Shown here piece after piece: positions 2,313 to 18,439 of a stretch of 64,000 bases of DNA (positions are counted from its first letter, which is position 1; the number at the start of each line of letters is the position of its first letter). The notes beneath the pieces are model-generated. The model was not told the DNA's origin and made no database searches. It worked only from the letters and a program-made list of their open reading frames with translations. A program made the position numbers and the translations under genes. Source of the DNA: Hoeflea phototrophica DFL-43. Lineage in GTDB: Bacteria > Pseudomonadota > Alphaproteobacteria > Rhizobiales > Rhizobiaceae. The DNA is taken from the NCBI RefSeq assembly GCF_000154705.2, contig NZ_CM002917.1, forward strand, positions 4,245,408 through 4,309,407, in the 5' to 3' direction.

Positions 2313-2783
2313 TTAATTGCTAGTTGTCCTTGCCAAAGGCGGCAGATCCAAGAGCTTCCTAGCAAGCCGGTGAAAGTTCGGCAGGTGATCGACAAATGCC
2401 TCAGCATACCCTTCGTTGAAGACCAGCCCCACCTCACTGCCCATGGCCTGCTGGATGATCCGGTCCATGGTGTCGGGAGATGCCGTGAAGAGGATGTTGG
2501 GCACATCGCTCATGTTAGCCGAAGTTCCGATCAAGCCGCCGTTGCAGGAACTAATGGGCGTGCCTCCGAGAGCAGAAATCGCTATGACCAAACCCGCGAC
2601 ACCAGGATCCAAGAGAGAGGTCAATCCGATGGCACCCATGTTGTCCTCGACGACATCTTCGGCCTCCTCTGTGTTCCACCCAGCTTCGGCTAGGTCGGCA
2701 AGCAATTGAGCCTCATCCAAGCTGCGCAGCCCACGGATTCCTTCATCCCAGCGGATTTCCACCCCTGCGCTGCGAAGCAGCAT
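2313..2783 (-). CDS. Small protein of unknown function, last gene of methyltransferase operon
   Basis: A 156-residue soluble protein that I cannot assign. A Leu-rich, acidic N-terminal helical part (about 1-55) is followed by a segment (about 62-85) of the form L-V-I-A-I-S-A-L-G-G-T-P-I-S-S-C-N-G-G. This resembles small domains carrying a conserved Ser-Ser-Cys-x-Gly turn after a 'LG-x-T' strand. The C-terminal third is helical. The start codon has AGGAAAG six or so bases upstream. It lies 33 bp after the stop of the receiver-like gene on the same strand, so it is very likely the fourth cistron. Its role could be an effector, an adaptor or an immunity partner; nothing in the sequence decides this. 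Confidence 0.65.
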   Translation of the reverse strand: MLLRSAGVEIRWDEGIRGLRSLDEAQLLADLAEAGWNTEEAEDVVEDNMGAIGLTSLLDPGVAGLVIAISALGGTPISSCNGGLIGTSANMSDVPNILFTASPDTMDRIIQQAMGSEVGLVFNEGYAEAFVDHLPNFHRLARKLLDLPPLARTTSN

Positions 2784-2816
2784 GTATCTTTCCTCGAATA
2801 GGTCGGCTGGCGGGCG

Positions 2817-4631
2817 TCACTCGGTTGGTGCAGAAAAGTCGAGACCGATCCTAGTAAACTCAATGCCCAATTTCTGGATCAGGTTTAATGCATACTCGTA
2901 TCGCAACTGGCCAACCAATTTGGCATCGACCTCTTTCACCTGCATTTGCTTTTCCTTGCTCAAGAGGTAGCTCAGGCTAAGCTTGGCGGTGTGGTCCTCC
3001 TCGATCACAAATTTTCCGAAGTCGGCAGCCATAAAGAGGCGCCAAATCGGTGAACCAAACTGGCCACCCCGTGGATAGACTGTGTAAGTCTTGATGGCAT
3101 CGTCTTCCTTGAGGAATATCAAGGTGTTTGAGTTCACTTCAGAACTCGTATACGTCTGCCAAGGAGTTAATCTGACCGCAACGAACGGTTTTACAGATGC
3201 CTCACGGGAATTCAGGACAGCTATTGATGCCTTTTGGAACGGTACCAAATCACAAGACGGCGAAAGGCATACCCACATCTCCTTCTTTATCTTGAAAATG
3301 TGACCGGGATTAAGGTGCCAACCGGAGAGCTGCTTGGTCGATATGTGAGCGTTGTAGTGAGCAAGTGCTTTGGTGCTCTCCGCTTTCACAGAGGAATTGA
3401 TCGCGTAGTACCTCGAGAACCCCGGGCGCTTTGGGTTGGCTTCGCTCGGATCGGCTCGCAAAACCTGCAAACCGAAATCTACAGCCTTCTTGCCAATCTG
3501 ATCGAGCAATCGCTCCGTGTGCCGCGCAACATGGCTTTCCAGTAAGTTTTTTCTACGATTTTGAACCGCCTCGGGAGAAGGATCCAGCGGAGCTTTTCTG
3601 AGCTCCTTATAGTAGTGCCAATATGCGTACTTATCGCTTAAGGCATGGTGCTCAGCTCCAGCACCTTTCTGACTGATCTCAGCGCGAATGTGAGCGGACA
3701 TTAGCCTCGATGGGGATGGGCGCCAATCTACGATTGCGGTTTGGAGAATTTTAAGCAGTTGGGTATTCTTCTTGTCGGCGAAGGCGATGAAGCCGCCGTT
3801 GGTTCGTATCCACGGCTTACGTCGGTTTCCGGGCTTGCTCCATCGTAGATCTCTTGGAGACGCTTCATAGGATGCAACTTTCTTATCGTGTGATGACATC
3901 CCCCATTCCATGACCTTAAGGCGTTGGTCGTCATCCCAACCGGCTTCATCCGCAATGGCACGAAAATTGGCAAACTCGGGCGACGACTTCATGCAGTCCG
4001 CCCGCTCGCGTCCATTCCGTTCAAAGCCTTGGAGTGCAATATAAGCGGTTGCGTTTAGGGCCTTCTTCAAATCTTCAAAAACGTCCGCGAACCGCTCCTC
4101 TCCAGTGTCCTCCAAGGCTTCGACCAAATTGAAGCCCTCGACGGCCCTGTCATCGGATATGTTCAGTGGAGTTAGCAGTGACATCAAGATGGTGTTGAAC
4201 GGGTCAATCAGATCGCCAATCGCTGTATGGATAACCACCAGGTTAAAGTGATTGTTATTCAGCAAATCCGCTACAATCTGTGCAGCACGGACACCATGCG
4301 GTTCGTTCTTTTCAAGCTGATAGTCGAGCACCAGAAGGTCGGACTGGCACAAATAGCTACCGATCTCTTCGTTGTGTTGGCCGTCATGAATGTCCACTGT
4401 CAGCGCGGGTGACATTTGCCGAAACTGTTTGACCACCTTCAAGATTTTGTTCTTGGGTGTCCAACGTTTGGTGTCGGAGGCATCATAGCCCTCCTCACCG
4501 AAGACCTGCTCCCAAGTTGGATATTGGTCATCGATGATCAGCACCGATTTGATAGGGTCAATGAAAGCCTCCTTGACCAGATCCGAAAACGTAACCTTGG
4601 GTTCCTCAGCCGCAATTGCCAGTTCAGTCAT
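2817..4631 (-). CDS. Receiver-like domain protein, third gene of methyltransferase operon
   Basis: 604 residues. The N-terminal ~150 residues read like a divergent response-regulator receiver: strand V-L-I-I followed by acidic Asp34-Asp35, a phosphoacceptor-like Asp103 in L-L-V-L-D-Y-Q-L, and Thr136 at the end of strand V-V-I-H-T. The rest (about 200-604) has no DNA-binding helix-turn-helix that I can see. It carries Lys/Arg-rich helices and, near 450, a Cys-containing L-S-P-S-C-D-L motif within a beta-rich segment. It overlaps the upstream GHKL gene by 8 bp, implying translational coupling and a shared complex or pathway. I recall a Pfam family of 'response receiver' domains in uncharacterised proteins that may cover it, but could not check. 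Inference: phospho-accepting partner of the histidine-kinase-like half of the 991-residue protein. Actual output unknown. Confidence 0.7.
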   Translation of the reverse strand: MTELAIAAEEPKVTFSDLVKEAFIDPIKSVLIIDDQYPTWEQVFGEEGYDASDTKRWTPKNKILKVVKQFRQMSPALTVDIHDGQHNEEIGSYLCQSDLLVLDYQLEKNEPHGVRAAQIVADLLNNNHFNLVVIHTAIGDLIDPFNTILMSLLTPLNISDDRAVEGFNLVEALEDTGEERFADVFEDLKKALNATAYIALQGFERNGRERADCMKSSPEFANFRAIADEAGWDDDQRLKVMEWGMSSHDKKVASYEASPRDLRWSKPGNRRKPWIRTNGGFIAFADKKNTQLLKILQTAIVDWRPSPSRLMSAHIRAEISQKGAGAEHHALSDKYAYWHYYKELRKAPLDPSPEAVQNRRKNLLESHVARHTERLLDQIGKKAVDFGLQVLRADPSEANPKRPGFSRYYAINSSVKAESTKALAHYNAHISTKQLSGWHLNPGHIFKIKKEMWVCLSPSCDLVPFQKASIAVLNSREASVKPFVAVRLTPWQTYTSSEVNSNTLIFLKEDDAIKTYTVYPRGGQFGSPIWRLFMAADFGKFVIEEDHTAKLSLSYLLSKEKQMQVKEVDAKLVGQLRYEYALNLIQKLGIEFTRIGLDFSAPTE

Positions 4632-7599
4632 TAATATTCGCCCCCCGGAACTTCATTGCGAAGTTCGCGCCGGACAGGATCTTCCTGTCGTCCTCTTGCA
4701 CATAACGGATTGTGTGTCCTCCGGCGGCGAGATTGGCCTGAGACAAATATAGGCCTATGCCGCGCCCACCCTCGATCTTCCGGGTGAAGAACAAGGTGAA
4801 CAGGCGTTTCAGATCTATCTCGTCTACGCCAGGGCCGTTGTCGGCCACGAAAACTTCGTCATCCCGGACATCAAGTAAGATCTTCGGACCCTCAACTCGT
4901 GCGTTGACCAACCAATAGATACTGTTGTTCACGAGGTTCACGAACACCGGCAGCAACCGCGATGGCTGGTCGAAAACGTTGAACCGCCGAAACGCCGGGG
5001 TGGCGACCAACTCTATGCCACTCTCGGCAAGGGTGCGCCCGAAAAAATCCGAGACGTACTGATCGATGTAGTCTCCTCCGATGTCTCGTGGCTGCGGGCG
5101 GCCTGCCATGCGTAGTGGTCCGAGGAAATCGAGGATCTGTTTGAGGCCAGCATAGCCCATGGCGAGCTGTTCAAGGTCCTTATCCTTCCCAAGCTTTTTC
5201 TTGAGCTTCAGAATGCCCTCGTCGATGACAGAGTCATGGGAATGGAGCTCATGGTCGAGAAATTCGACGGTAATGCCTAGCTGCGCCAGCCCATTCAAGC
5301 GATCGACGGTGCTGCGAAGTTCGTTGTTCTCCTCGCCAGCGAGAATAGCGACTGCTTGGATGTCGATGCTTTCCTTCAGATTCTCCAAGGCCAGTATATA
5401 GTTCTGGAACAGCAGCTCATTCTCGCCGTCGATCCTATTTTTGGCATCGACGACAGATCGGGAAGCTGACGTCAGCGATAGCCTGCCGCTGGCTGTCTGC
5501 TCGATCAGCGGCATAGTCTCCTCCCGCAAGAGCTTGTTGCGCTCAGAAACCAGGTCGCTAATGCGATCACGTTCCGCGTCTTGTAATACCCTTATCTCCT
5601 TGGACCAGCGGGTTACACGCGAAGTGAGCTGACCCTCATTACGCTGGATCTGCTTGAGTACGATCTCTTCCGGCGACGGTGGATTTATCTTTTCGACGGC
5701 ACTGGCGATGCTGTTGGAGAAATCTGCAACCATTTGGTTCAGTTCGGTCATCGCCCGACGATAGGATCGATATTCTTCCTCCAGGGTGCCGAGCGGCGAC
5801 GGCGCACCAGGCAGCCTGAGTTCAGCTATGCTCGCTTGGACCGCCTCTAAGCACTCTTGCGCGGTCGGGATGTCATCGGCAAATTCGATGCGGGTTGCCT
5901 TTATGTCCGCACGCAGTCGTTCCGACACAGAAGGGATGCTGGCGATGCGAGCTTTCAGATTCTTTCGGAATGACCTGCGCTGCTTCTGGCGTAGCTTTGC
6001 CTGAGACTCCTTTGCCTTGTGTTCGGCGAAATTACTTCGAGCGTCCGCCAATTCCACGGCGCGGTCATCGGAGTTTGAGCCAAAATAGTCGTAAGCAGAC
6101 GACCTGAGGATGTTGACGATCAGGACCTTGAGAGTTTTAGCGGCCTTGTTGACGATGAACCCTTCGCGTCCAGCCTTATCCTTAAGATTGGGGTTGTGTT
6201 CGCGACTTATGGCTATCCGACCGAATATTCGGCGGGAGTTCCAATACTCTCGCCCGGCATTGATGCTGCGTCGCTTTTCGATCTCGAAGAAGTCGTTATC
6301 TTCGCGGCCATACGGCAGTACGCGCAAGCCGTTGCGGTAGATCATCAGACCCGCATGAGGAGAGGCGTGCTGCTTGAGATACTCAAACTCAATAGGAGTG
6401 TGGCTGGTGTTCTTCGGTTCTTGCTCGAATGTCGCGAAATAAACGTCGACCGGTCCAAGCAAGGTCCCTGACCCAGTTGGCAGAACGAACTCCTTGGGGG
6501 GACGAATTTCGTACTCGGTTCCAACTTTACGCCACTTGCCAAAGGACTTGATTTGCCCCCTGAACACACCTTTTTCGTCGATGCGTCCGTCGACGATATG
6601 CTCCATCCGATCCGTAAGCGATCTGTTGAACTCGGCAGCAGAGCCGATGATCTTGCGAGAATGACCGTTCGAGGAAAGAAAGACACCGTACTCGAAATCA
6701 GGCATCGCTGCGTTGATCTCAGGTATCGCGGGATCATAAAGTGGATCTACAAACCCTCCCAAGGTCCTCTCGAACCGGGCTTTGTCCTCCTTTGCCGTCG
6801 ACAGTTGACTGTTGGCAGGTAGAAGTGCCGCGAATTCTTCGCTGGCGCCGGAGACCACCATGGCGGTGCCTTTATCGGCAGCTCCGGACCAGGCACTCCA
6901 TGGGGCCAGATATTCGTTGGTAAGCTTGAACGATCTGCAAGCCGTCACAATAGATAGCGAGGGCGCTGCTTTATCGCCGTTCCGCCCCTCTGCCTGCACA
7001 GCCAGATCATATCTGGACCAGGCGTCGATCATCCTGAGTGACCGTCCATCTTCCAGACCTGTGCCAAGCACGTTCTCGAGGAGCGCCTCGGTCATTAGAG
7101 GCAGAAATTCGGTGATCTCGTTATGATCGTCAAACTCGATAACTGGGATCTCGATGTCAGTGAGGACAAGAAACGGATTCTCAAAGAGCCGCCAATCGAT
7201 CAATGCAGCAGCCATTTTCTGCCGCCGGCGCTTGGTGAGGAGCAGCATCAACGGACCGAGGTGTGCGGACGATAGCCGGCCAATGCCCTTTTGACCTTGG
7301 CGCGTTCTTGGTTCCAGTCCATCACGATCTTCGTCAGAACGACCATCGCCAAAAAGCTTAGATTCTGTACCGACAACCAACCAACGATCTATTAGTTCCT
7401 CTATGTTCATACCATGGCCATCATCGGCGATGGTCACAACCAAGGGATCCTCATCGAAAATGGTCAACGACACCGATCGGGCGTACGCGTCATAAGAATT
7501 TTTCCACAGCTCTGAGATAGCTGTGGGGACGTCAGCGATCTGTTCGCGCCCCAAGTGATCGACCGTACGTGCCGTGGTCTTAAAGCCGACTGTCCTCAT
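4624..7599 (-). CDS. Dual-GHKL ATPase (MutL/MORC-like N-terminus, histidine-kinase-like C-terminus)
   Basis: 991 residues with two Bergerat-fold ATPase domains. The first (about 1-200) has N-box E30-L-W-K-N-S-Y-D-A, G1 motif D-D-G-H-G-M (59-64) and a G-x-x-G-I-G motif (102-107), the MutL/Hsp90/MORC style. The second, at the C-terminus, has N-box N-L-V-N-N-S (888-893), D-N-G-P-G-V (920-925) and G-R-G-I-G-L-Y-L (945-952), the histidine-kinase style. Between them lie a beta-rich transducer-like region, long charged coiled-coil helices (about 520-760) and an H-box-like D-H-E-L-H-S-H (His783/786/788). No membrane segment, so cytoplasmic. Its ATG overlaps the methyltransferase stop (ATGA), and its end overlaps the receiver-like gene. 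GHKL/MORC ATPases beside DNA methyltransferases are known from restriction-modification-like loci. The kinase half suggests signalling to the receiver protein. Both roles are inferred. Confidence 0.8.
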   Translation of the reverse strand: MRTVGFKTTARTVDHLGREQIADVPTAISELWKNSYDAYARSVSLTIFDEDPLVVTIADDGHGMNIEELIDRWLVVGTESKLFGDGRSDEDRDGLEPRTRQGQKGIGRLSSAHLGPLMLLLTKRRRQKMAAALIDWRLFENPFLVLTDIEIPVIEFDDHNEITEFLPLMTEALLENVLGTGLEDGRSLRMIDAWSRYDLAVQAEGRNGDKAAPSLSIVTACRSFKLTNEYLAPWSAWSGAADKGTAMVVSGASEEFAALLPANSQLSTAKEDKARFERTLGGFVDPLYDPAIPEINAAMPDFEYGVFLSSNGHSRKIIGSAAEFNRSLTDRMEHIVDGRIDEKGVFRGQIKSFGKWRKVGTEYEIRPPKEFVLPTGSGTLLGPVDVYFATFEQEPKNTSHTPIEFEYLKQHASPHAGLMIYRNGLRVLPYGREDNDFFEIEKRRSINAGREYWNSRRIFGRIAISREHNPNLKDKAGREGFIVNKAAKTLKVLIVNILRSSAYDYFGSNSDDRAVELADARSNFAEHKAKESQAKLRQKQRRSFRKNLKARIASIPSVSERLRADIKATRIEFADDIPTAQECLEAVQASIAELRLPGAPSPLGTLEEEYRSYRRAMTELNQMVADFSNSIASAVEKINPPSPEEIVLKQIQRNEGQLTSRVTRWSKEIRVLQDAERDRISDLVSERNKLLREETMPLIEQTASGRLSLTSASRSVVDAKNRIDGENELLFQNYILALENLKESIDIQAVAILAGEENNELRSTVDRLNGLAQLGITVEFLDHELHSHDSVIDEGILKLKKKLGKDKDLEQLAMGYAGLKQILDFLGPLRMAGRPQPRDIGGDYIDQYVSDFFGRTLAESGIELVATPAFRRFNVFDQPSRLLPVFVNLVNNSIYWLVNARVEGPKILLDVRDDEVFVADNGPGVDEIDLKRLFTLFFTRKIEGGRGIGLYLSQANLAAGGHTIRYVQEDDRKILSGANFAMKFRGANIND

Positions 7600-8735
7600 G
7601 CCTCGATCAACTCGCCAATGTCGGAGGCTCCTCGCTCTGGGATCACTATCATCGTCTCCGGTTCGTTCTGGAACAGAAGAGAACTGATGTGCCGAATAAG
7701 GACTTCGCCCAGAGCAACGGGGACCGCATTCCCGATTTGCTTACCAGCGGCCATCAAACCGCCAACGAAGATGTAGTCGTCCGGGAAGGTCTGGATGCGC
7801 GCCGCCTGACGGGCAGTTATTCCGTGATGAAGGACGGGATGCACGAAACGTCCCTTGGACGGATTGATGCAGGCAGTTGTCATAGTAGGGGCTGGCTTGC
7901 TCGGATCTATGCGGCCATAGACGTCTTTGTGACCATCATGATCGACATGGCAAGCGAGCACTCGACCCGAATCTCTGCGACTGCCTCCATTTGCTGGCGT
8001 GCGCTTGAACGCGGCGATCAGCTCCGGTCCGTGATTCATGTGTACGCCATTGATGTCATCTTCGGGCATGTCCTCGAAGGCGGTTTTGCAGGACAGCCAA
8101 GGCTCCAAGCCGAACGTCGTCGCCGTTTCCGGTTCACAATGGGTCCGGGCTGGCGGCCATTCGAAACCATCCGTAGATACGTCTCTACGGATGCCTAGAA
8201 TGAAGACCCGCTGCCGGCGTTGGGGGGTGCCATAGTCTCGAGCGTCCAATTTCTGAGGCTGGTAGACAACGTAACCGCTGTCGCGAGCCTGTCCGTAAAA
8301 TTCATCGAGGTAGCTCTTATGGCGCGGCCATAGCATGCCGGGAACGTTCTCCATCAGGAACGCCTTGGGTTGTAGGCTGCGCACGAAAGCAAAATATTCG
8401 TGTATCAACGCATTACGTGGGTCGTTTACACCAGCATCGTTGATCCTGTGTGTCGAGAAGCCTTGGCATGGCGGACCGCCTAGTAGCAGGTCGCAATCGG
8501 ATGCTGGAAAATGTTTCTTCGCCAAAGCCGACGCGCTCAGCGAGGTAATGTCCCGATTGTAGACGACAACGTTTTTGCTGCGATGGTCCGCGCCGATATT
8601 GTTCCTGAAGGTCGTCGCGGCGTTCTTGTCGAACTCGACCGCGAATACGATCTCGCAGCCCGCTCGCACGGCAGCCAGGGAAAACCCACCAGCGCCAGCA
8701 AATAGGTCCACCACTTTAAGTTTCACGCCAGTCAA
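7596..8735 (-). CDS. DNA (cytosine-5-)-methyltransferase
   Basis: About 379 residues, a full-length C5 methyltransferase using S-adenosylmethionine. Motif I D-L-F-A-G-A-G-G lies near 10-17; motif IV G-G-P-P-C-Q-G-F-S carries the catalytic Cys; motif VI is E-N-V-P-G; motif VIII is Q-R-R-Q-R-V-F-I; motif IX is R-Q-A-A-R-I-Q-T-F-P-D-D-Y; motif X is G-K-Q-I-G-N-A-V-P. The variable target-recognition region sits between VIII and IX. The start is uncertain: TTG at 8735 or GTG at 8726, neither with a good ribosome site. It is the first gene of a four-gene minus-strand operon, overlapping the dual-GHKL gene by 4 bp. No restriction endonuclease is obvious in the operon, so it may mark self DNA for the ATPase/receiver pair. 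It could otherwise be an orphan methyltransferase. Confidence 0.92.
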   Translation of the reverse strand: MTGVKLKVVDLFAGAGGFSLAAVRAGCEIVFAVEFDKNAATTFRNNIGADHRSKNVVVYNRDITSLSASALAKKHFPASDCDLLLGGPPCQGFSTHRINDAGVNDPRNALIHEYFAFVRSLQPKAFLMENVPGMLWPRHKSYLDEFYGQARDSGYVVYQPQKLDARDYGTPQRRQRVFILGIRRDVSTDGFEWPPARTHCEPETATTFGLEPWLSCKTAFEDMPEDDINGVHMNHGPELIAAFKRTPANGGSRRDSGRVLACHVDHDGHKDVYGRIDPSKPAPTMTTACINPSKGRFVHPVLHHGITARQAARIQTFPDDYIFVGGLMAAGKQIGNAVPVALGEVLIRHISSLLFQNEPETMIVIPERGASDIGELIEA

Positions 8736-11047: not shown

Positions 11048-12142
11048 TCATGCTATTGTGAACTCGAGAACCTGGAAGCGGCGCATCGCTAGAAGGCTGG
11101 AAACTCTGATGCGGAGCTGATTACCGGGTCTGCCGCCATTGACGTAGACGTGTGAGAAAGATGTCACCGCCTCGTCGCAGACAAACTCCAAGTCAGTATC
11201 AAGAAATGGTGTAACGGCTCCACTCATAAATCCACCGGTTGCTTCTGCCACATCTTCTTGGGGTATCAATTCGATCCGAGAAGAACCAAGTGCAGTTGCA
11301 AGACGCTTGAAGTCCACGCGTCTTTCGTAGCCAAGCACCAGACAAAATCGGCGGTCTGCGGCTTGGCAGATAAGTGTCTTCAAGACACTGCCACGTAATT
11401 CATTGGTTAAGAAATTCGGATACACACCTTCGTGCGGCTTATGATAGCGCTGACGAATATAGTGCCCTTGTGCTCGAAGCTCTCTGGCAGCAGGCGTCTG
11501 CGCGATTTCCACGATCGGAATCGGCTCTACCGTTGCACGAGCGGTATTAATGAGCGAATGGAACATCCTGAGAGCGTCGTCCAAGCGCTTGTTCGGTAGG
11601 CCTGGGACCTTCATAATCCGGACCACGGCATCCGGAGAGGCCTCCTCCAGCATATAGTCGTGATTTAGTCCAGACTCAGGCGCATGTACGACATTTGAAC
11701 CATCATAGATCGCAATAGGTCCAGGTGCTGTCGATTTCGTTCTAAAGCGTCCCAAGTGCAGTCCCTTTTGCATAGGGGGTTTAAAACACTGAAAGCTCAC
11801 TCCGGATCCGTACTCAGCAATCATGCATGCATCCACCAGCCGAGAAATTGAACGATAGCTCTTGTCGTGGAATCTAAATGCCTGCCGGAATGGTGTTGAT
11901 ACCCGCTTCCCGCGAATTCCTGTTGCCTTGTAGAACTCAGGATAAGTCCAGGAAAATTTGACCTCTGATACTGCTTGGGCATTACCGCAAGTGGCGCGGG
12001 CTGCGGCCGTGGCCATGTCTTCGGCATGCCGCCGCTCACTATCGCATGCATAGGCTCGGATACCGGAGACTCGGAAAAATGCAAACTGGAGGTCCGGGAA
12101 TTCCCGGACCTCTTCTGACATGGTCACAAAAGGACGGATCAT
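11048..12142 (-). CDS. B3/B4 domain - YbaK-like domain fusion (putative aminoacyl-tRNA trans-editing protein)
   Basis: 364 residues. Residues about 60-200 resemble the B3/B4 domain of PheRS beta and stand-alone B3/4 proteins: W-T-Y-P-E-F-Y-K-A-T-G-I-R-x-K-R, then a L-V-D helix and P-I-A-I-Y-D-G. Residues about 245-355 resemble the YbaK/ProX editing fold: V-L-K-T-L-I (the Lys aligns with the catalytic Lys of YbaK), L-V-L-G-Y-E-R-R-V-D-F-K-R-L-A, G-G-F-M-S-G-A-V-T-P-F, and a final G-G-R-P-G-N-Q-L-R-I. Both families remove wrong amino acids from tRNA. Its ATG overlaps the flavoprotein stop (ATGA), so the two are translationally coupled. Inference: it clears mischarged tRNA, perhaps for an amino-acid analogue linked to the flavoenzyme. 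Assigned from motifs only. Confidence 0.65.
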   Translation of the reverse strand: MIRPFVTMSEEVREFPDLQFAFFRVSGIRAYACDSERRHAEDMATAAARATCGNAQAVSEVKFSWTYPEFYKATGIRGKRVSTPFRQAFRFHDKSYRSISRLVDACMIAEYGSGVSFQCFKPPMQKGLHLGRFRTKSTAPGPIAIYDGSNVVHAPESGLNHDYMLEEASPDAVVRIMKVPGLPNKRLDDALRMFHSLINTARATVEPIPIVEIAQTPAARELRAQGHYIRQRYHKPHEGVYPNFLTNELRGSVLKTLICQAADRRFCLVLGYERRVDFKRLATALGSSRIELIPQEDVAEATGGFMSGAVTPFLDTDLEFVCDEAVTSFSHVYVNGGRPGNQLRIRVSSLLAMRRFQVLEFTIA

Positions 12143-13863
12143 GCCGCTTCCTCCGGTGATAGAGCGTCATTCATTGTGCCAGCCCGGTAAACACGGGAGG
12201 TATGCATCACTCCGTCCTCGCTCATCCGCACAGAAGTATTGTAGATGTCTATTTCACCGTCAGCGTCTGTGCGGTAATGCGCACCGACCGAATTGGTTCG
12301 TTCGATAGCTGCGCTGTTAACAGCGCGTGACAGTATGAGTTTTTGATAGAGCGACCGCATCGCCGCGCATGGCAGAGAAAGGTCTCGCGCCGGAACTTTG
12401 ATGACATTTGACGCGACCCGAGCAAAAACATCGTTCAATAGCAAACGTGCTAGTTGAAGACCGTCACCCGAACGGATCGGCCCGACGTGATGCCACATGG
12501 TCTTCTTGATCAAGGCGTCCAATCGGACTGTCTCCGACACGTCTGGAAGGTTCAGCAATGAGACAACGCATTTTGTTGGATCGAAACTGCCGGTTTGACC
12601 AGCGTCAGAACGCGCAGCCGCCTCGCCAGCGATTTTTCCGAACACGAGTGCGTCCGAAACGCCGTTCCCGCCCAAACGATTGCCTCCGTGGATCCCAGCG
12701 GCGTCTTCACCGCATGCAAAAAGCCCTTTGATGCTGGTCTGTGCATGAATATCAATCTCGATACCGCCCATCCAGAAATGTGCCGCAGGGCTGGTTTCGA
12801 CCTGTGTAACCTGGGTAAGATCAACGTACGTACGAAGGCGTTCCAACATGTACGGAAAGCGCTGTTGCAGAAACTGCGGTGGCAGCATAGAGAGATCAAA
12901 AATGACGCCGCCGTTAGGCGTTCCACGCCCCTCCATGATTTCACGGTAACAAGCACGCGCGTTTACATCGCGTGTGGCACGTTCGGCATCTTCATGTTCA
13001 TACTTCATGAAGCGCTCTCCGTGGACGTTAAAGAACTGGGCTCCCTGAGCGCGCAGCTCTTCCTCCATGATTTCGCCGTGCCCCTTGCGCCCCGGGCGCG
13101 CCAACCCAGTTGGATGAAATTGCATCATTTCACTGTCCATCAGCGCACCACCCGCTTCGAGGAAACAAGCAGCGGCAGTCGCTTGTTTGTCGTCGGAGAT
13201 TGTTGCAATGGGGTACACGCATGCACCTCCACCCATGGCCGTAATGCCCACGGGAGCAGCAACATATTCAGTCTCACCAGTCACCGTATCCATCACGATC
13301 ACGCCACCAAAGACATTGTCGGCGATCACGAAGCTGAGTACTTGCCGGCTGTGAAGCGCCTCCACACCGCATCGGCGTGCTTCTTCCCAGAGGCGAGTCA
13401 CGCCAGAAAGGCCCAACATATCCTGTGCATGAACGGAGCGTGGATGTGTGCTGCCGCCGTAGAATCCTGGATCGTATCGGTCGCCGATCTTGTCAAATTG
13501 AACGCCGAGCTGCTCCAGTTCGCGAATCGCTTCCGGAGCACCTTCACAAAGCGTTGCGACAAGCTCAGGCTTGCCGATACCGCCGCCGCCACGAAGCGTG
13601 TCACTCGCATGAACAGCGACACTATCGCCGGGATTCATTGCTGCATTCGCACCGTGTGTTTTGTGGGAGCAGCAGCCGTAGCCATTATTTGGACCAGCAG
13701 TCAGAAGTCCAACGCGTGCCGTCGGTCTCGTCTTCTTCGCGGCAACAGCTGCGCGCAATCCCGCAAAGCCGCCGCCCATAATCACAATGTCGTATCGCAT
13801 CTCATGGATTACGCTGGATCGGAAACTTTTGATCTCTGTGCCGGATGGTTTTGCCTGGTTCAT
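12139..13863 (-). CDS. FAD-dependent oxidoreductase of the fumarate reductase/succinate dehydrogenase flavoprotein family
   Basis: 574 residues from ATG 13863, which has an excellent AAGGAGGA site; a longer reading to 13965 lacks one. The N-terminal Rossmann motif is Y-D-I-V-I-M-G-G-G-F-A-G-L-R-A-A. The capping/catalytic part has H-P-T-G, an Arg-rich E-E-L-R-A-Q-G segment, and H-F-W-M-G-G-I-E-I-D. The FAD-binding end is G-L-F-A-C-G-E-D-A-A-G-I-H-G-G-N-R-L-G-G-N-G. This is the SdhA/FrdA/NadB/AprA fold. No iron-sulfur or membrane subunit follows, and the core genome here has its TCA genes elsewhere, so it is not ordinary Sdh. It is the first gene of a minus-strand operon with the tRNA-editing fusion. 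The substrate is unknown; a dicarboxylate or amino acid is plausible. The usual S-H-T/Q-G-G segment near FAD is replaced by C-C-S-H-K-T-H-G. Confidence 0.88.
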   Translation of the reverse strand: MNQAKPSGTEIKSFRSSVIHEMRYDIVIMGGGFAGLRAAVAAKKTRPTARVGLLTAGPNNGYGCCSHKTHGANAAMNPGDSVAVHASDTLRGGGGIGKPELVATLCEGAPEAIRELEQLGVQFDKIGDRYDPGFYGGSTHPRSVHAQDMLGLSGVTRLWEEARRCGVEALHSRQVLSFVIADNVFGGVIVMDTVTGETEYVAAPVGITAMGGGACVYPIATISDDKQATAAACFLEAGGALMDSEMMQFHPTGLARPGRKGHGEIMEEELRAQGAQFFNVHGERFMKYEHEDAERATRDVNARACYREIMEGRGTPNGGVIFDLSMLPPQFLQQRFPYMLERLRTYVDLTQVTQVETSPAAHFWMGGIEIDIHAQTSIKGLFACGEDAAGIHGGNRLGGNGVSDALVFGKIAGEAAARSDAGQTGSFDPTKCVVSLLNLPDVSETVRLDALIKKTMWHHVGPIRSGDGLQLARLLLNDVFARVASNVIKVPARDLSLPCAAMRSLYQKLILSRAVNSAAIERTNSVGAHYRTDADGEIDIYNTSVRMSEDGVMHTSRVYRAGTMNDALSPEEAA

Positions 13864-14123
13864 GACTTCCTCCTTCGAGCGGGGGGGGTGAAACCCGCTA
13901 GCAAGAGCAGTTTGAACGATCGCTGGGCAACGTCTAGGAAATGAAATCGGCTCGCGAATTTTCAAACGCCGAGGATATTCTTTGATTCTGCGATTGAGAC
14001 GATTGTGTATTCTTTTTTTGACAGGTTGATTAAAAAACTACAGGTTCTAGAAAGAAACTGACAAAACAGCGACCCGATCGAGCTTCGTGACCAGCCACGT
14101 ATCGGAGTGATTCGTTTGGCTTT
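13864..14123. promoter_or_regulatory. Divergent intergenic region
   Basis: 260 A+T-rich bases between the divergent flavoprotein operon (minus) and the STAND-like ATPase (plus). TTGACA at 14018-14023 (plus) could be a -35 element, but the matching -10 is poor (TACAGG 14039-14044, 15-bp spacer). Both transcripts presumably start here. Confidence 0.3.
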
Positions 14124-17100
14124 TTGGGGGCAGGATTGGGACAAGGGCGCACTAGCGATAGTGATCGTTACTATAATCAGGCTTCGCTTTTCGAGGCCTT
14201 GGAGAAGCTAGAATCCCTATGGCCGCGCTTGACGCGATCGGAATCTGATCTGTCTAAACATTCCGCTCGGAAACTCAACCCTCTTTGGATTGCCGACAGT
14301 GCAGGTGGGCATGTTGGCGTCAGGGTTGCGATACTCGCCACCCATCTCATCTATCGCTACGCAACTAGCGAGATTCTCAAGATCTCTGACTTGAAGGACC
14401 TCAGGGATTACCCTGCACTCGACGACGAACTGTTGAGAAAAGAAGGCATTTCAGAGTCGGTGAATGACTTCAAGAATGCGATAGCGCCGCTTGCATCCGA
14501 GAATGAGAAAAACATACGTCGCTACGACCCTAAACGTGACAGGCTGGCGTTCGTCTGTTTCGCATCCAGAGCGAAACAGACGCTCGATAAAGCACGCGGG
14601 ATACAACAAGAGCCGAAAACCGCTATCAGCGACGCAGTTGCGCTGTACGATCGCATAGTCAAGGCGCACTGCAAAACCGCCAATGAAGTCTTCAGCATCA
14701 TCAGCACCACTTGGCTAGAGGGCCTCTCCTATCTGGCGCCGAAAGGCGACGTAGAAGCCATTGCCAAAAAGCAACCGCCCGATCCGTCAAATGCACTTCA
14801 CTTCATACCACCTAAACTGGCTGAGTATCTTCCCCCATCAGGACGGTTTCACGGCAATCGAAATCCGCGCGAACTGTCAGACATGGCTGAACTTGTCCTG
14901 CAGCAGTTTCGTCATGCCAGAGCTCGGCTTGCTGTTATCTCTGGAAAGGTGAATGCCGGCAAGTCAGGATGCGTTGTCGAGTTCTTGCGAGCCCTTTACT
15001 CGTCCGACAACACGACGATCGGGCTATCGTTATCTTTTGGTAGCAAGAGCTCGGAGGGCACTCTGCCCGTGTTCACAGTGAGCGTGCAAGACTACACGGG
15101 TTATGAGTTACTGCTACATGTTTTGGCCTTTCTGTCTCGTCTCGAAATGCCAGCACGAGACCGGAGGAAGTCCACCTTCGAACGATGTGTCGCTGAACTG
15201 CGCAACGAATATGGAACGGAGCCGGGGGCAGAAGAACTCCAGAGGATTAAACAGAGAATCCGGAACCTACACAGAGACAACCCAGCAGTTTTCATATTGA
15301 CGAACTGGGAAGATCTGACATGGAGCACGCCACGCGCGCAACTACGTGATCAGTCGAAAGCATCTTTGATTGAGCTTTTGCACGATAGCAACGAAACGAG
15401 CCGATTTTTGGTCACAACCACTGATGTACCGACGGCCCGCTCGGAACAATCGCTTCCCGCATTTGAGCTCTATGATGTCGAAGATCCTCGGTTAAAGGAC
15501 ATCATTCGCTATTTACCAGACTTGCAATACCCTTCCTGCTACGAAGAAGAACTATTCGCCGCAGCTAAGCGGATGAACAAGGTGGCTATACCGGGAGATC
15601 ATCTCATACTTTTCGCCGGGGCACTTGAGCTATGTCGCGGCGATCCAGAATGGGGGGCGAGAGCCAATGATACACTCAGGCAGCTTTCGCCTGAACAGTA
15701 TCTAACACTCTCTAAGCCGGCGGCCCACCAGTTTGTTCGATTGTTAGTTGAGCGCCTGCATAACCGGGACCTGTTCAGGATCGTGGTTGCAATAGCTGCA
15801 TCTGACGATGGGTTGCGCCCCAGTTCCCTGCAACGACTTATGAGCAACTGGGACAGCGACACTGGTCGGAGCCTCCAGAGGAAGGGGTCGCAGATTAATG
15901 CTGGATTGGAGGAATTGGAGGGGCTCGCGAACAGCTTCTTCCTCCGATGCAGGATGATCAAACCAATCAGCGCCTTGCAATTCGATCCTACCGAGCGCGG
16001 GATAGCTGGGGAGGCCTCTTGGGAGACTTATGAGTCACTGAGAAAGACGTTGATCTCCGCACTAACTGCGCATGGCGAGCAGGATTGGGCAGCCCCATTC
16101 ACAAGGCTTCTTCGTGAGGGGATGCGCCACATCGCAAGGCTTGCGTTCAATAGGGCGCAAGAATGGCGCTGCCGAACAGTGCTTTCGAACCTCACGCCAA
16201 GATGGCAGGACTTACTTCTCGATATTCAAGCCTACGAAACTCTTCTGGCTAGTATTGATCCTGCAGACTTGACCGATAACAACCGCAACGCAGATCAGGT
16301 CAGCGCCAATCCCTTGCTTCATCATTCTGTGGAAGCAGTATTCACATGTGGGAATGGCCATTCCGCTGCTGTCGCTATCCGGTTCGCCGTTCAAATACTC
16401 CTGCTCGAGACAGTCGATCAGGACAACCAGATGTCCATGTGCTATGATCAGGATTTGATGCGGATGAGGCTATACATGCTTCCATTCGTAGGCGTCGGTC
16501 GTCGGCACTTCGATCGGCTCGATGATATGGAATACGAAGCTCTTCCTAGTTCCTTCCCTGAATGGCTGGAGACCATCTTTTCCGTGGAAGAGATTTTCTG
16601 TCTCTTGGAAGCTGTAGCGATCTCGGCTCTGCACGCTCAAGTCCCGCATGTCGTGCGGTGGGCATGGGTTCGGACTGAGGAGCTCATCGAACGCCTTGTA
16701 GATCGTGGCATAGATCGTACCGATTTGATTGCCCGCGTCGCAAGGATTTACTGCTCGACAGTTGATATGGCGATTCAACTCGGGAAGCCTCTCATTCAAA
16801 ACGGTTCGAGAGACGATACCCGCAACGGTCACGAGCTTACCCTCCGGCAGGTTGAAGACTTCATTGCGGGTGAGTTCCCCGAATTTGGCAAAGAAACGCC
16901 CATTCCTGCCGAGTTCGACCTATCGATCACGCGAAAGCGCAACCACATCGAAGCCATCAAACGAATTGAAGTACGAAGGGCGCAACTTCTTGGTTTAACT
17001 GGTCAGCTCCAGAAAGCTCAGGAGGAACTAAAAAACATCCACACATGGGACTCTGCGCTTGCAAGATCGAATAGTTTTGGTCATGCCAGAATCCTCCAAG

Positions 17101-17747
17101 GCCGTCCGGCACGAGTGGCCCTTCACATAATGATGCGGGACTTTATCCTTTCGAAAAACGACATGCAGATGCCTGATGAGCGGTCACGCCGTGTTCTAGG
17201 AATGCTCTCTGCCAATGCGTCGCGCCTGGCTCGGTTTGGAGGTGCAGAACAGGCCGCTTTGCTGATCGATCGTTCAAGGTTCGCATTTGTGAACGGAAAC
17301 ATTGACCTGGCCATGCAATATGCGTTGGAGGCGCGACAATTCTGCGAAGACAATAGGGTCAGTTACGGGATGCAGATTCAGATACTACTCAATCTGGTCG
17401 CAATCCTGATCGAAGCATCCGAAGTCGCGAGATCAGATGCTGCGAATGATCGTTTGGCAAACCGGGCGACAATGGAAAACGCGCAACGGGATGTGGATGC
17501 TGTCTACCAGACCGCGAACGCCCTAGGCCTGAGACCAACAGAAGGTATTGCGCTCTATCTAAAGGTCCGACTCCAATACATTCGCACTTTGCATTATCCG
17601 TCTGAAGGCCTGACGTCTGGGAAGCTTCGTGCTGCAACGAAGGACATATCACTAGCAATCCAAATCATGAAAAGTTGTGGTGATGTATCCTACAGACATG
17701 CGATGGAAGAGCTGAGGGGTTCTCTGCAACAGCTTACTCCCATATAA
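14124..17747 (+). CDS. Large STAND-like P-loop ATPase
   Basis: About 1207 residues. No ATG occurs in the first 250 codons, so the start (TTG at 14124) is uncertain. After an N-terminal domain of about 235 residues without a recognised fold, residues 241-253 read R-F-H-G-N-R-N-P-R-E-L, like the F-x-G-R-x-x-E-L entry of STAND/AAA modules. A Walker A G-K-V-N-A-G-K-S follows (274-281) and a Walker-B-like V-F-I-L-T-N-W-E-D-L (389-398), in which Asn-Trp replaces the usual acidic pair. The C-terminal ~700 residues are helical and repeat-like (TPR-type near 960-1170). No membrane segment. STAND proteins with sensor repeats include many bacterial antiviral NTPases (Avs-type), so a defence role is inferred. 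The N-terminal region would be the effector, but its type is not visible. Confidence 0.7.
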   Translation: MGAGLGQGRTSDSDRYYNQASLFEALEKLESLWPRLTRSESDLSKHSARKLNPLWIADSAGGHVGVRVAILATHLIYRYATSEILKISDLKDLRDYPALDDELLRKEGISESVNDFKNAIAPLASENEKNIRRYDPKRDRLAFVCFASRAKQTLDKARGIQQEPKTAISDAVALYDRIVKAHCKTANEVFSIISTTWLEGLSYLAPKGDVEAIAKKQPPDPSNALHFIPPKLAEYLPPSGRFHGNRNPRELSDMAELVLQQFRHARARLAVISGKVNAGKSGCVVEFLRALYSSDNTTIGLSLSFGSKSSEGTLPVFTVSVQDYTGYELLLHVLAFLSRLEMPARDRRKSTFERCVAELRNEYGTEPGAEELQRIKQRIRNLHRDNPAVFILTNWEDLTWSTPRAQLRDQSKASLIELLHDSNETSRFLVTTTDVPTARSEQSLPAFELYDVEDPRLKDIIRYLPDLQYPSCYEEELFAAAKRMNKVAIPGDHLILFAGALELCRGDPEWGARANDTLRQLSPEQYLTLSKPAAHQFVRLLVERLHNRDLFRIVVAIAASDDGLRPSSLQRLMSNWDSDTGRSLQRKGSQINAGLEELEGLANSFFLRCRMIKPISALQFDPTERGIAGEASWETYESLRKTLISALTAHGEQDWAAPFTRLLREGMRHIARLAFNRAQEWRCRTVLSNLTPRWQDLLLDIQAYETLLASIDPADLTDNNRNADQVSANPLLHHSVEAVFTCGNGHSAAVAIRFAVQILLLETVDQDNQMSMCYDQDLMRMRLYMLPFVGVGRRHFDRLDDMEYEALPSSFPEWLETIFSVEEIFCLLEAVAISALHAQVPHVVRWAWVRTEELIERLVDRGIDRTDLIARVARIYCSTVDMAIQLGKPLIQNGSRDDTRNGHELTLRQVEDFIAGEFPEFGKETPIPAEFDLSITRKRNHIEAIKRIEVRRAQLLGLTGQLQKAQEELKNIHTWDSALARSNSFGHARILQGRPARVALHIMMRDFILSKNDMQMPDERSRRVLGMLSANASRLARFGGAEQAALLIDRSRFAFVNGNIDLAMQYALEARQFCEDNRVSYGMQIQILLNLVAILIEASEVARSDAANDRLANRATMENAQRDVDAVYQTANALGLRPTEGIALYLKVRLQYIRTLHYPSEGLTSGKLRAATKDISLAIQIMKSCGDVSYRHAMEELRGSLQQLTPI

Positions 17748-17791
17748 TGAGGCGTATCTGTCCGTCGCGCTCTGTGATTTGCATAATCGTC

Positions 17792-18110
17792 CTAGAGCGC
17801 CTCGGTGCGGGATTGGATATGCGATCCGGTCGGTGTCCCTTCGATATCGAAGCCGGCTGGGATCAGGGCTTTCACCTGCTCCGTGTGGGAGATCAAACCC
17901 ACCGCCCACATCTCGTTGGCAAGGGAATAGAGCGTTCCAGTGCGGTGTTCAGTGTCTCGTCATCTAGCGTGCCAAATCCGTCGTCGATGAAAATGGCGTT
18001 GAGCCAGATTACGCCGCTATTCTGTTGCACAATAACTGAGAGTCCGAGCGCCAGCGCCAACGATGCCTGGAATACCAGAAGCCACCAGTCAGTTCCCGAC
18101 CCCATTTCAG
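17792..18110 (-). pseudogene. Frameshifted 3' remnant of an SbcC/Rad50-type ATPase gene
   Basis: On the minus strand three frames in turn encode the C-terminus of an SbcC/Rad50-like ATPase. R-E-L-T-G-G-F matches the ABC signature. Then [10 protein letters not shown] and the Walker [15 protein letters not shown] appear in a second frame. After a further shift near 17930, [22 protein letters not shown] (the H-loop) leads to a stop at 17792. At least two frameshifts and loss of everything upstream make it non-functional. It lies between the STAND-like gene and tRNA-Ser. It may be left over from an earlier element or nuclease-ATPase locus. Confidence 0.75.
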
Positions 18111-18349
18111 CCATTCGTGGCCAACGCTGCGAAGGCCCGGCTTCTGCGACCCAAAGTGATTTAGGTGCGCACTGCGGCGAAGGCCCCACCTTCACTCGAT
18201 GCTAAATGAAATCTGTGCCAGCCATAAAGTTGGTTATGTGTCGTCCAGCAAGGCTCAGAGAGAAGCAAAACAATATGTGGTATGAAATGTGGAATAGAAG
18301 ATCCAATCTCCACAATTATTCTTTAAAACCAATCATTTAAGAAAAGAAA
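18111..18349. other. Junction between island remnant and tRNA-Ser
   Basis: Short A+T-rich stretch with no supported gene. It would contain the att junction if the island entered at the tRNA 3' end; no duplicated tRNA 3' segment was found elsewhere in the left 18 kb. Confidence 0.35.

Positions 18350-18439
<90 letters not shown>

Follow-up and report, generated by a model that had tools for sequence, protein, structure and literature searches.

A HEF_HK/Response_reg_2 pair beside a C5-cytosine methyltransferase in Hoeflea phototrophica: a possible restriction-modification-like module built on a phosphorelay

Among described systems, the closest to the locus considered here is a two-component-like gene pair studied by Bellieny-Rabelo, Pretorius and Moleleki, who in 2021 defined both of its Pfam domains, HEF_HK and Response_reg_2 (PMC8011034). 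The portions of that account at hand give a two-gene linkage of 91.6% in 644 regions, frequently with C5-cytosine methylases upstream of the pair, and name the position just downstream as the commonest one for Vsr genes; of 222 kinase proteins, 174 have the three-domain architecture (their group 1). The authors propose a two-component system tied to restriction-modification (R-M) and paraMORC ATPases; the same portions give neither a defence test nor a system name. Here we analyze a four-gene operon in a stretch of 64,000 nucleotides from Hoeflea phototrophica DFL-43 (contig NZ_CM002917.1, positions 4,245,408 to 4,309,407; hereafter the window, whose numbering is used below unless otherwise stated), and find that its first three genes are a member of this described pair beside a C5 methylase. 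The original prediction, made from the sequence alone, held that no described unit matches the operon; the publication of the pair and its C5-methylase linkage overturns that statement. We tentatively read the three genes as an R-M-like module in which a phosphorelay stands in place of a separate restriction enzyme, with a predicted role in defence.

The locus has in common with the published pair a match to the receiver family over the cut-off, the dual-ATPase architecture and the C5-methylase neighbor, but it includes an extra fourth gene, and the published account, in the portions at hand, assigns the receiver protein no effector domain; MazF, PemK and phage do not occur as terms in its main text (PMC8011034). 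In common with the MORC and paraMORC ATPases of R-M loci it has a GHKL ATPase at the N terminus, with cytosine methylases and Vsr genes as neighbors, whereas the part of that study at hand mentions no protein with two GHKL domains, and the word receiver does not occur (Iyer, Abhiman and Aravind 2008, PMC2292703). The nearest tested analogue encountered is VcSduA, a Shedu nuclease with a GHKL domain formerly annotated as paraMORC3, in which, according to the sections at hand, protection from phage requires the residues of the GHKL ATPase as well as those of the nuclease (PMC12137116). The likeness lies in a GHKL ATPase, which in VcSduA stands beside a defence effector; that effector is a fused DUF4263 nuclease, whereas Pfam finds no DUF4263 domain in the GHKL protein of the window, where a kinase half and a receiver occur instead.

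Open reading frame (ORF) calling recovered all four genes intact on the minus strand, with the coordinates and spacing originally predicted: a C5-cytosine DNA methyltransferase gene (7596..8735; 379 residues, TTG start), a gene for a dual-GHKL HEF_HK-type protein (4624..7599; 991 residues), a Response_reg_2 receiver gene (2817..4631; 604 residues) and an optional fourth gene of a family without a name (2313..2783; 156 residues). The methyltransferase and GHKL genes overlap by 4 bp and the GHKL and receiver genes by 8 bp, with a gap of 33 bp before the fourth gene. The 379-residue protein is a DNA_methylase (PF00145, E 3.1e-63) with the motifs PCQ, containing Cys90, and ENV, and its closest solved chains are the HaeIII methylase 1dct and 3g7u. 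A search of the organism's own genome with this family recovered the C5 gene of the operon and one other frame with two matching stretches.

As foreseen, the 991-residue protein is bipartite, joining an N-terminal GHKL domain (HATPase_c_3, PF13589; residues 26-139, 7183..7524, minus strand, E 1.5e-18) to a C-terminal histidine-kinase ATPase domain (HATPase_c, PF02518; residues 879-971, 4687..4965, minus strand, E 4e-15). At the expected place between the two lies a HEF_HK region, similar to dimerization and histidine phosphotransfer domains (PF19191; residues 773-829, 5113..5283, minus strand), whose 19.4 bits are below the cut-off of 24.1; of two orthologues scanned, one scores over the cut-off (L004, 31.5 bits) and one under it (L047, 21.9 bits). 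An alignment of 49 rows (A4), prepared after setting aside fragments and duplicates (L001, L002, L011, L048, L054) and two loci with over-extended ORF starts (L005, L027), revealed invariant residues in both the N-terminal ATP site (N34, D59, G61, G63, G102, G105, G107) and the C-terminal one (N888, N891, N892, D920, G922, G924, G945, G947, G949). His783 (codon 5251-5253, minus strand, within the HEF_HK region) is invariant in the same 49 rows and is the likely phosphodonor; the stretch 783-788 had been singled out beforehand, and its remaining residues are not invariant. The alignment also contains a conserved block at about residues 420-507, which is possibly S5-like. At L011 and L048 the GHKL gene is split over several frames, and these are possibly decayed copies.

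The receiver protein belongs to Response_reg_2 (PF19192; residues 27-154, E 6.6e-16, scoring 59.4 bits where the cut-off is 27), and its AlphaFold2 model (mean predicted local distance difference test score, pLDDT, 83.9) displays a REC fold. The first part of this fold (residues 26-155; 4167..4556, minus strand) contains D34, D35, D103 and T136; a variable helical insert (residues 156-262), the least conserved part of the protein with a median identity of 0.15, separates it from the closing beta5-alpha5 unit with Lys287 (residues 263-303; 3723..3845, minus strand). In an alignment of 51 rows (L001, L002, L011, L053 and L054 left out) D34, D35, D103 and K287 are invariant, the last in 51 of 51 rows; the choice of Asp103 (codon 4323-4325, minus strand) as likely phosphoacceptor is thereby upheld. 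Taken together, the alignments contain the two-component residue set of phosphodonor His, receiver Asp, acid pair, Thr/Ser and Lys. A Foldseek comparison of the full-length model with viral structures returned no match at E <= 0.001, and a search of phage records returned none. A DNA query with a Citrobacter receiver gene likewise found no match in E. coli genomes, though it is perhaps too distant to show absence, and a copy in E. coli is named in the 2021 study (PMC8011034). In a same-genus genome (L002) the receiver family matches a short frame of 216 residues, possibly a decayed copy.

In the module as we picture it, the methyltransferase would mark host DNA at a short sequence, as its family suggests, and the MORC/MutL-like N-terminal GHKL half would dimerize on ATP and clamp DNA, reacting to a missing mark or to otherwise abnormal DNA. 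The C-terminal kinase half would phosphorylate His783, from which the phosphate would pass to Asp103 of the receiver. Phosphorylation would then free the C-terminal domain of the receiver, which, by elimination, would harm the invader or stop the cell, with the 156-residue protein as an optional helper. Detocs, a phosphorelay-based defence system, is similar in idea; by its description it differs in having a nucleosidase as effector and no methylase.

To examine the gene contexts we scanned a genome collection of 84,980 species with the receiver alignment and obtained 53 named loci matching peptide patterns, a sample chosen by the receiver alone. Among their hosts are alpha- and gammaproteobacteria, Acidithiobacillus, Akkermansiaceae and a Dadabacteria bin; an orthologous trio occurs in Sphingopyxis yananensis (L045). 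The GHKL gene lies next to the receiver at 53 of 53 loci, and at 50 the pair has a C5 methylase beside it (35 times upstream, 11 times downstream on the same strand and 4 times downstream on the other); among the three others, L054 sits on a contig that breaks off within the receiver gene. Given that the loci were selected without regard to either partner, this linkage is not due to chance. The proposed tie to DNA methyltransferases and the co-occurrence of the trio in distant genomes are thus sustained, whereas the fourth gene was found at just one of the 53 loci. Within the window's order the receiver was detected in 12 of 397 genomes, and among near relatives in 2 of 61, the window's own genome included in both counts; the distribution is patchy, with the look of a mobile unit. 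All three plasmid matches (3/3) carry the trio. On a Pantoea dispersa plasmid its neighbors are a VOC-family gene on one side and a sulfonate transporter gene on the other; the listed annotation shows no nuclease gene near it, and the only annotated R-M gene there is its own methylase. On a Pseudoalteromonas plasmid (L093:13088-15999) DUF86 and nucleotidyltransferase genes, presumably a HEPN/MNT pair, and a Fic gene are close to the trio.

These contexts bear on a different interpretation, that the pair is a regulator and not a weapon, namely a soluble two-component system that governs how far the methylase and neighboring R-M genes are expressed or active, in line with what the 2021 authors suggest (PMC8011034). 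Single queries for Vsr, HNH_2 and NOV_C, the only nucleases sought, recovered them in the fetched stretches of 24, 5 and 3 of the 53 loci respectively, with none of these in 25; the Vsr neighbors and the REC fold of the receiver are consistent with such control. Against it, the pair's own methylase is the sole annotated R-M gene nearby on the Pantoea plasmid, and in the receiver proteins Pfam detects no DNA-binding output domain, helix-turn-helix or other. We consider this regulatory role somewhat unlikely.

The methylases could be compared in 46 of the 53 loci, after leaving out fragments (L011, L048, L054), loci with no methylase (L015, L024), one in which the methylase ORF was missed although tblastn detects it (L016) and one in which the wrong one of two methylases was picked (L005). 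At each of the 40 loci whose methylase is of the window's type, the proteins resemble those of the window in the order methylase > GHKL > receiver (median identities 0.58, 0.45 and 0.32), and the methylase recognition region, bounded by us at residues 188-268, has a median identity of 0.53. The other six (L008, L009, L022, L023, L025, L032) have a different methylase (median identity 0.37), which sits downstream of the receiver, while their GHKL and receiver proteins, at 0.45 and 0.32, are no more distant. The GHKL tree (support 0.707) and the methylase tree (1.0) each unite these six, which the receiver tree does not; perhaps they reflect one replacement event. Judging by such sequence comparisons, the kinase and receiver seem able to accept a different methylase, a mild argument against a target sequence built into either of them.

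This bears directly on a reading by ordinary R-M logic, under which the C-terminal domain of the receiver or the GHKL protein would be an unrecognized nuclease that cuts unmethylated sites, with phosphorylation merely gating it. The N-terminal GHKL domain matches a PADLOC model for type II restriction enzymes, its nearest NCBIfam family is that of the BbrUII/HgiDII restriction enzymes (NF050001; E 4.5e-17, residues 11-133), and conservation of the recognition region is what a co-evolved cutter would require. However, the NCBIfam match stops at residue 133 with 61.8 bits against a cut-off of 550, and the remainder of that family was not found in the window's protein. Pfam and PADLOC revealed no nuclease domain in the operon proteins, nor did Pfam in the C-terminal pieces, and the six swaps, free of additional change in the GHKL or receiver proteins, speak against a hard-wired target. 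We regard an undetected cutter of this kind as unlikely.

The favored module places its candidate effector in the C-terminal beta domain of the receiver protein (residues 437-595; 2847..3323, minus strand), which has an invariant C460-D461; the predicted model of residues 303-604 has a mean pLDDT of 88.3. Just one structure comparison gave a MazF-like arrangement for this domain, and other comparisons spoke against it. If that arrangement were real, the receiver could be a phosphorylation-gated toxin with a MazF-like barrel, with a methylation-sensing phosphorelay replacing the R-M cutter and firing an RNase or gyrase-type toxin, a version that we deem quite unlikely. We rejected MazF homology at the level of sequence: hhalign with 4 and then 20 PemK rows, hmmsearch in both directions and a profile search of the PDB returned nothing significant. 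The 20-row PemK profile reached an hhalign probability of 0.1% and an hmmsearch E of 0.9 or worse. In a separate comparison, controls (Vsr, resolvase, HNH, NOV_C, integrase and the small protein) did no worse than PemK, with scores equally low or a little higher. The 20 rows came from 34 loci (30 of one set and 4 of the 6 of another), being kept by a simple rule (a frame of 85-160 residues; 14 dropped) with no row-by-row check. Pfam likewise detected nothing significant in 51 C-terminal pieces; the best scattered matches, T2SSL in 1 of 51 (0.0067) and Hera_DD in 4 of 51 (best 0.068), are read as chance. A search for the domain on its own reduced 7,998 scored candidates to 51 matches, five with a receiver domain and one with a methylase domain. 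Many of these are on short contigs and resemble cut pieces, while others, P0155, P0157 and P0159 among them, are on contigs of 4-7 Mb; judged by sequence, a stand-alone form may exist.

Several points weigh against the defence module that we favor. The published authors, in the portions of their paper at hand, suggest signalling that controls R-M systems (PMC8011034), and the literature searched, which excluded subscription papers and bioRxiv, yielded no phage-defence test or other experimental study of HEF_HK/Response_reg_2 members. No PADLOC family matches the receiver, and its C-terminal domain lacks a significant sequence link to a known effector, leaving its effector role that of a candidate. 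Moreover, so well conserved a methylase recognition region is unusual for an R-M system in an arms race.

The 156-residue protein, which has no Pfam match, had earlier been suggested as an alternative effector. We rejected it as effector or core part: both tblastn and a profile including distant members recovered it at the single locus noted above, and the window's copy is without a block of 33 residues kept, at least in part, by all 24 aligned relatives (from 29), making it a poor effector candidate. The gap falls between similar DEAQ/EEAQ stretches, and 23 of the 29 non-self matches are 181-191 residues long; by these comparisons the window's copy is perhaps damaged. When the search was widened, 6 of the order's 397 genomes, counting the window's own, proved to hold a relative. 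At L088, in a genome other than the window's, a relative directly follows a receiver of 33% identity, and 8 of the 29 non-self matches pair with a receiver match by equal longest contig, so that linkage to the receiver is likely real in some relatives. In two genomes the relatives stand beside a different C5 methylase (L086:3345-7038, L087:6661-10353, L089:230-2882), possibly forming a separate R-M-like unit to judge from gene content; these stretches also hold a protein of 285-286 residues without assigned function, followed in L086 by a GIY-YIG protein. Around another relative (L090) no methylase relative was found within the fetched stretch. The protein looks like a methylase-associated accessory.

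The operon had been predicted to lie in island DNA, and the setting agrees: guanine-plus-cytosine content is about 0.53 against about 0.61 in adjoining DNA, and a tyrosine integrase gene lies left of the window (C1:4238051-4239265 of the same genome, stretch L066). One copy of a 15-bp direct repeat lies by this integrase (C1:4237917; L066:11917-11931), and the other, marking the island boundary (18349..18363), is at the 3' end of tRNA-Ser(CGA) (18350-18439, minus strand). From the repeat pair, the integrase and the tRNA end we therefore delimit an island of about 25.9 kb with the operon as cargo; a 101-bp query detected no second copy of a larger tRNA repeat near it. Such a location, with the patchy spread described above, would also suit a selfish addiction module, in which losing the methylase would set off the receiver effector inside the host, so that the island is kept. 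The same facts fit defence, and we consider this explanation very unlikely. Elsewhere on the island, a fumarate-reductase-like flavoprotein gene overlaps a gene with a YbaK-type tRNA-editing domain (11048-13965), an odd cargo, and a 1,207-residue ORF is followed by a 152-residue ORF starting at its last base (14124-18205), the two having no significant match in Pfam, NCBIfam, PADLOC or PHROGs. A PHROGs scan of seven ORFs, six outside the operon, gave one match, of unknown function; of six ORFs run through PADLOC, one inside the window and the other five to its left, none matched.

The HEF_HK/Response_reg_2 family is widespread and published; what this locus adds is the naming of the C-terminal domain of the receiver as a candidate effector. 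Combined with a trio that has no other annotated R-M genes nearby, this candidate allows the broad association with R-M systems to be put as a claim open to test, namely that bacteria may couple a check of DNA methylation to a response triggered by a phosphorelay.
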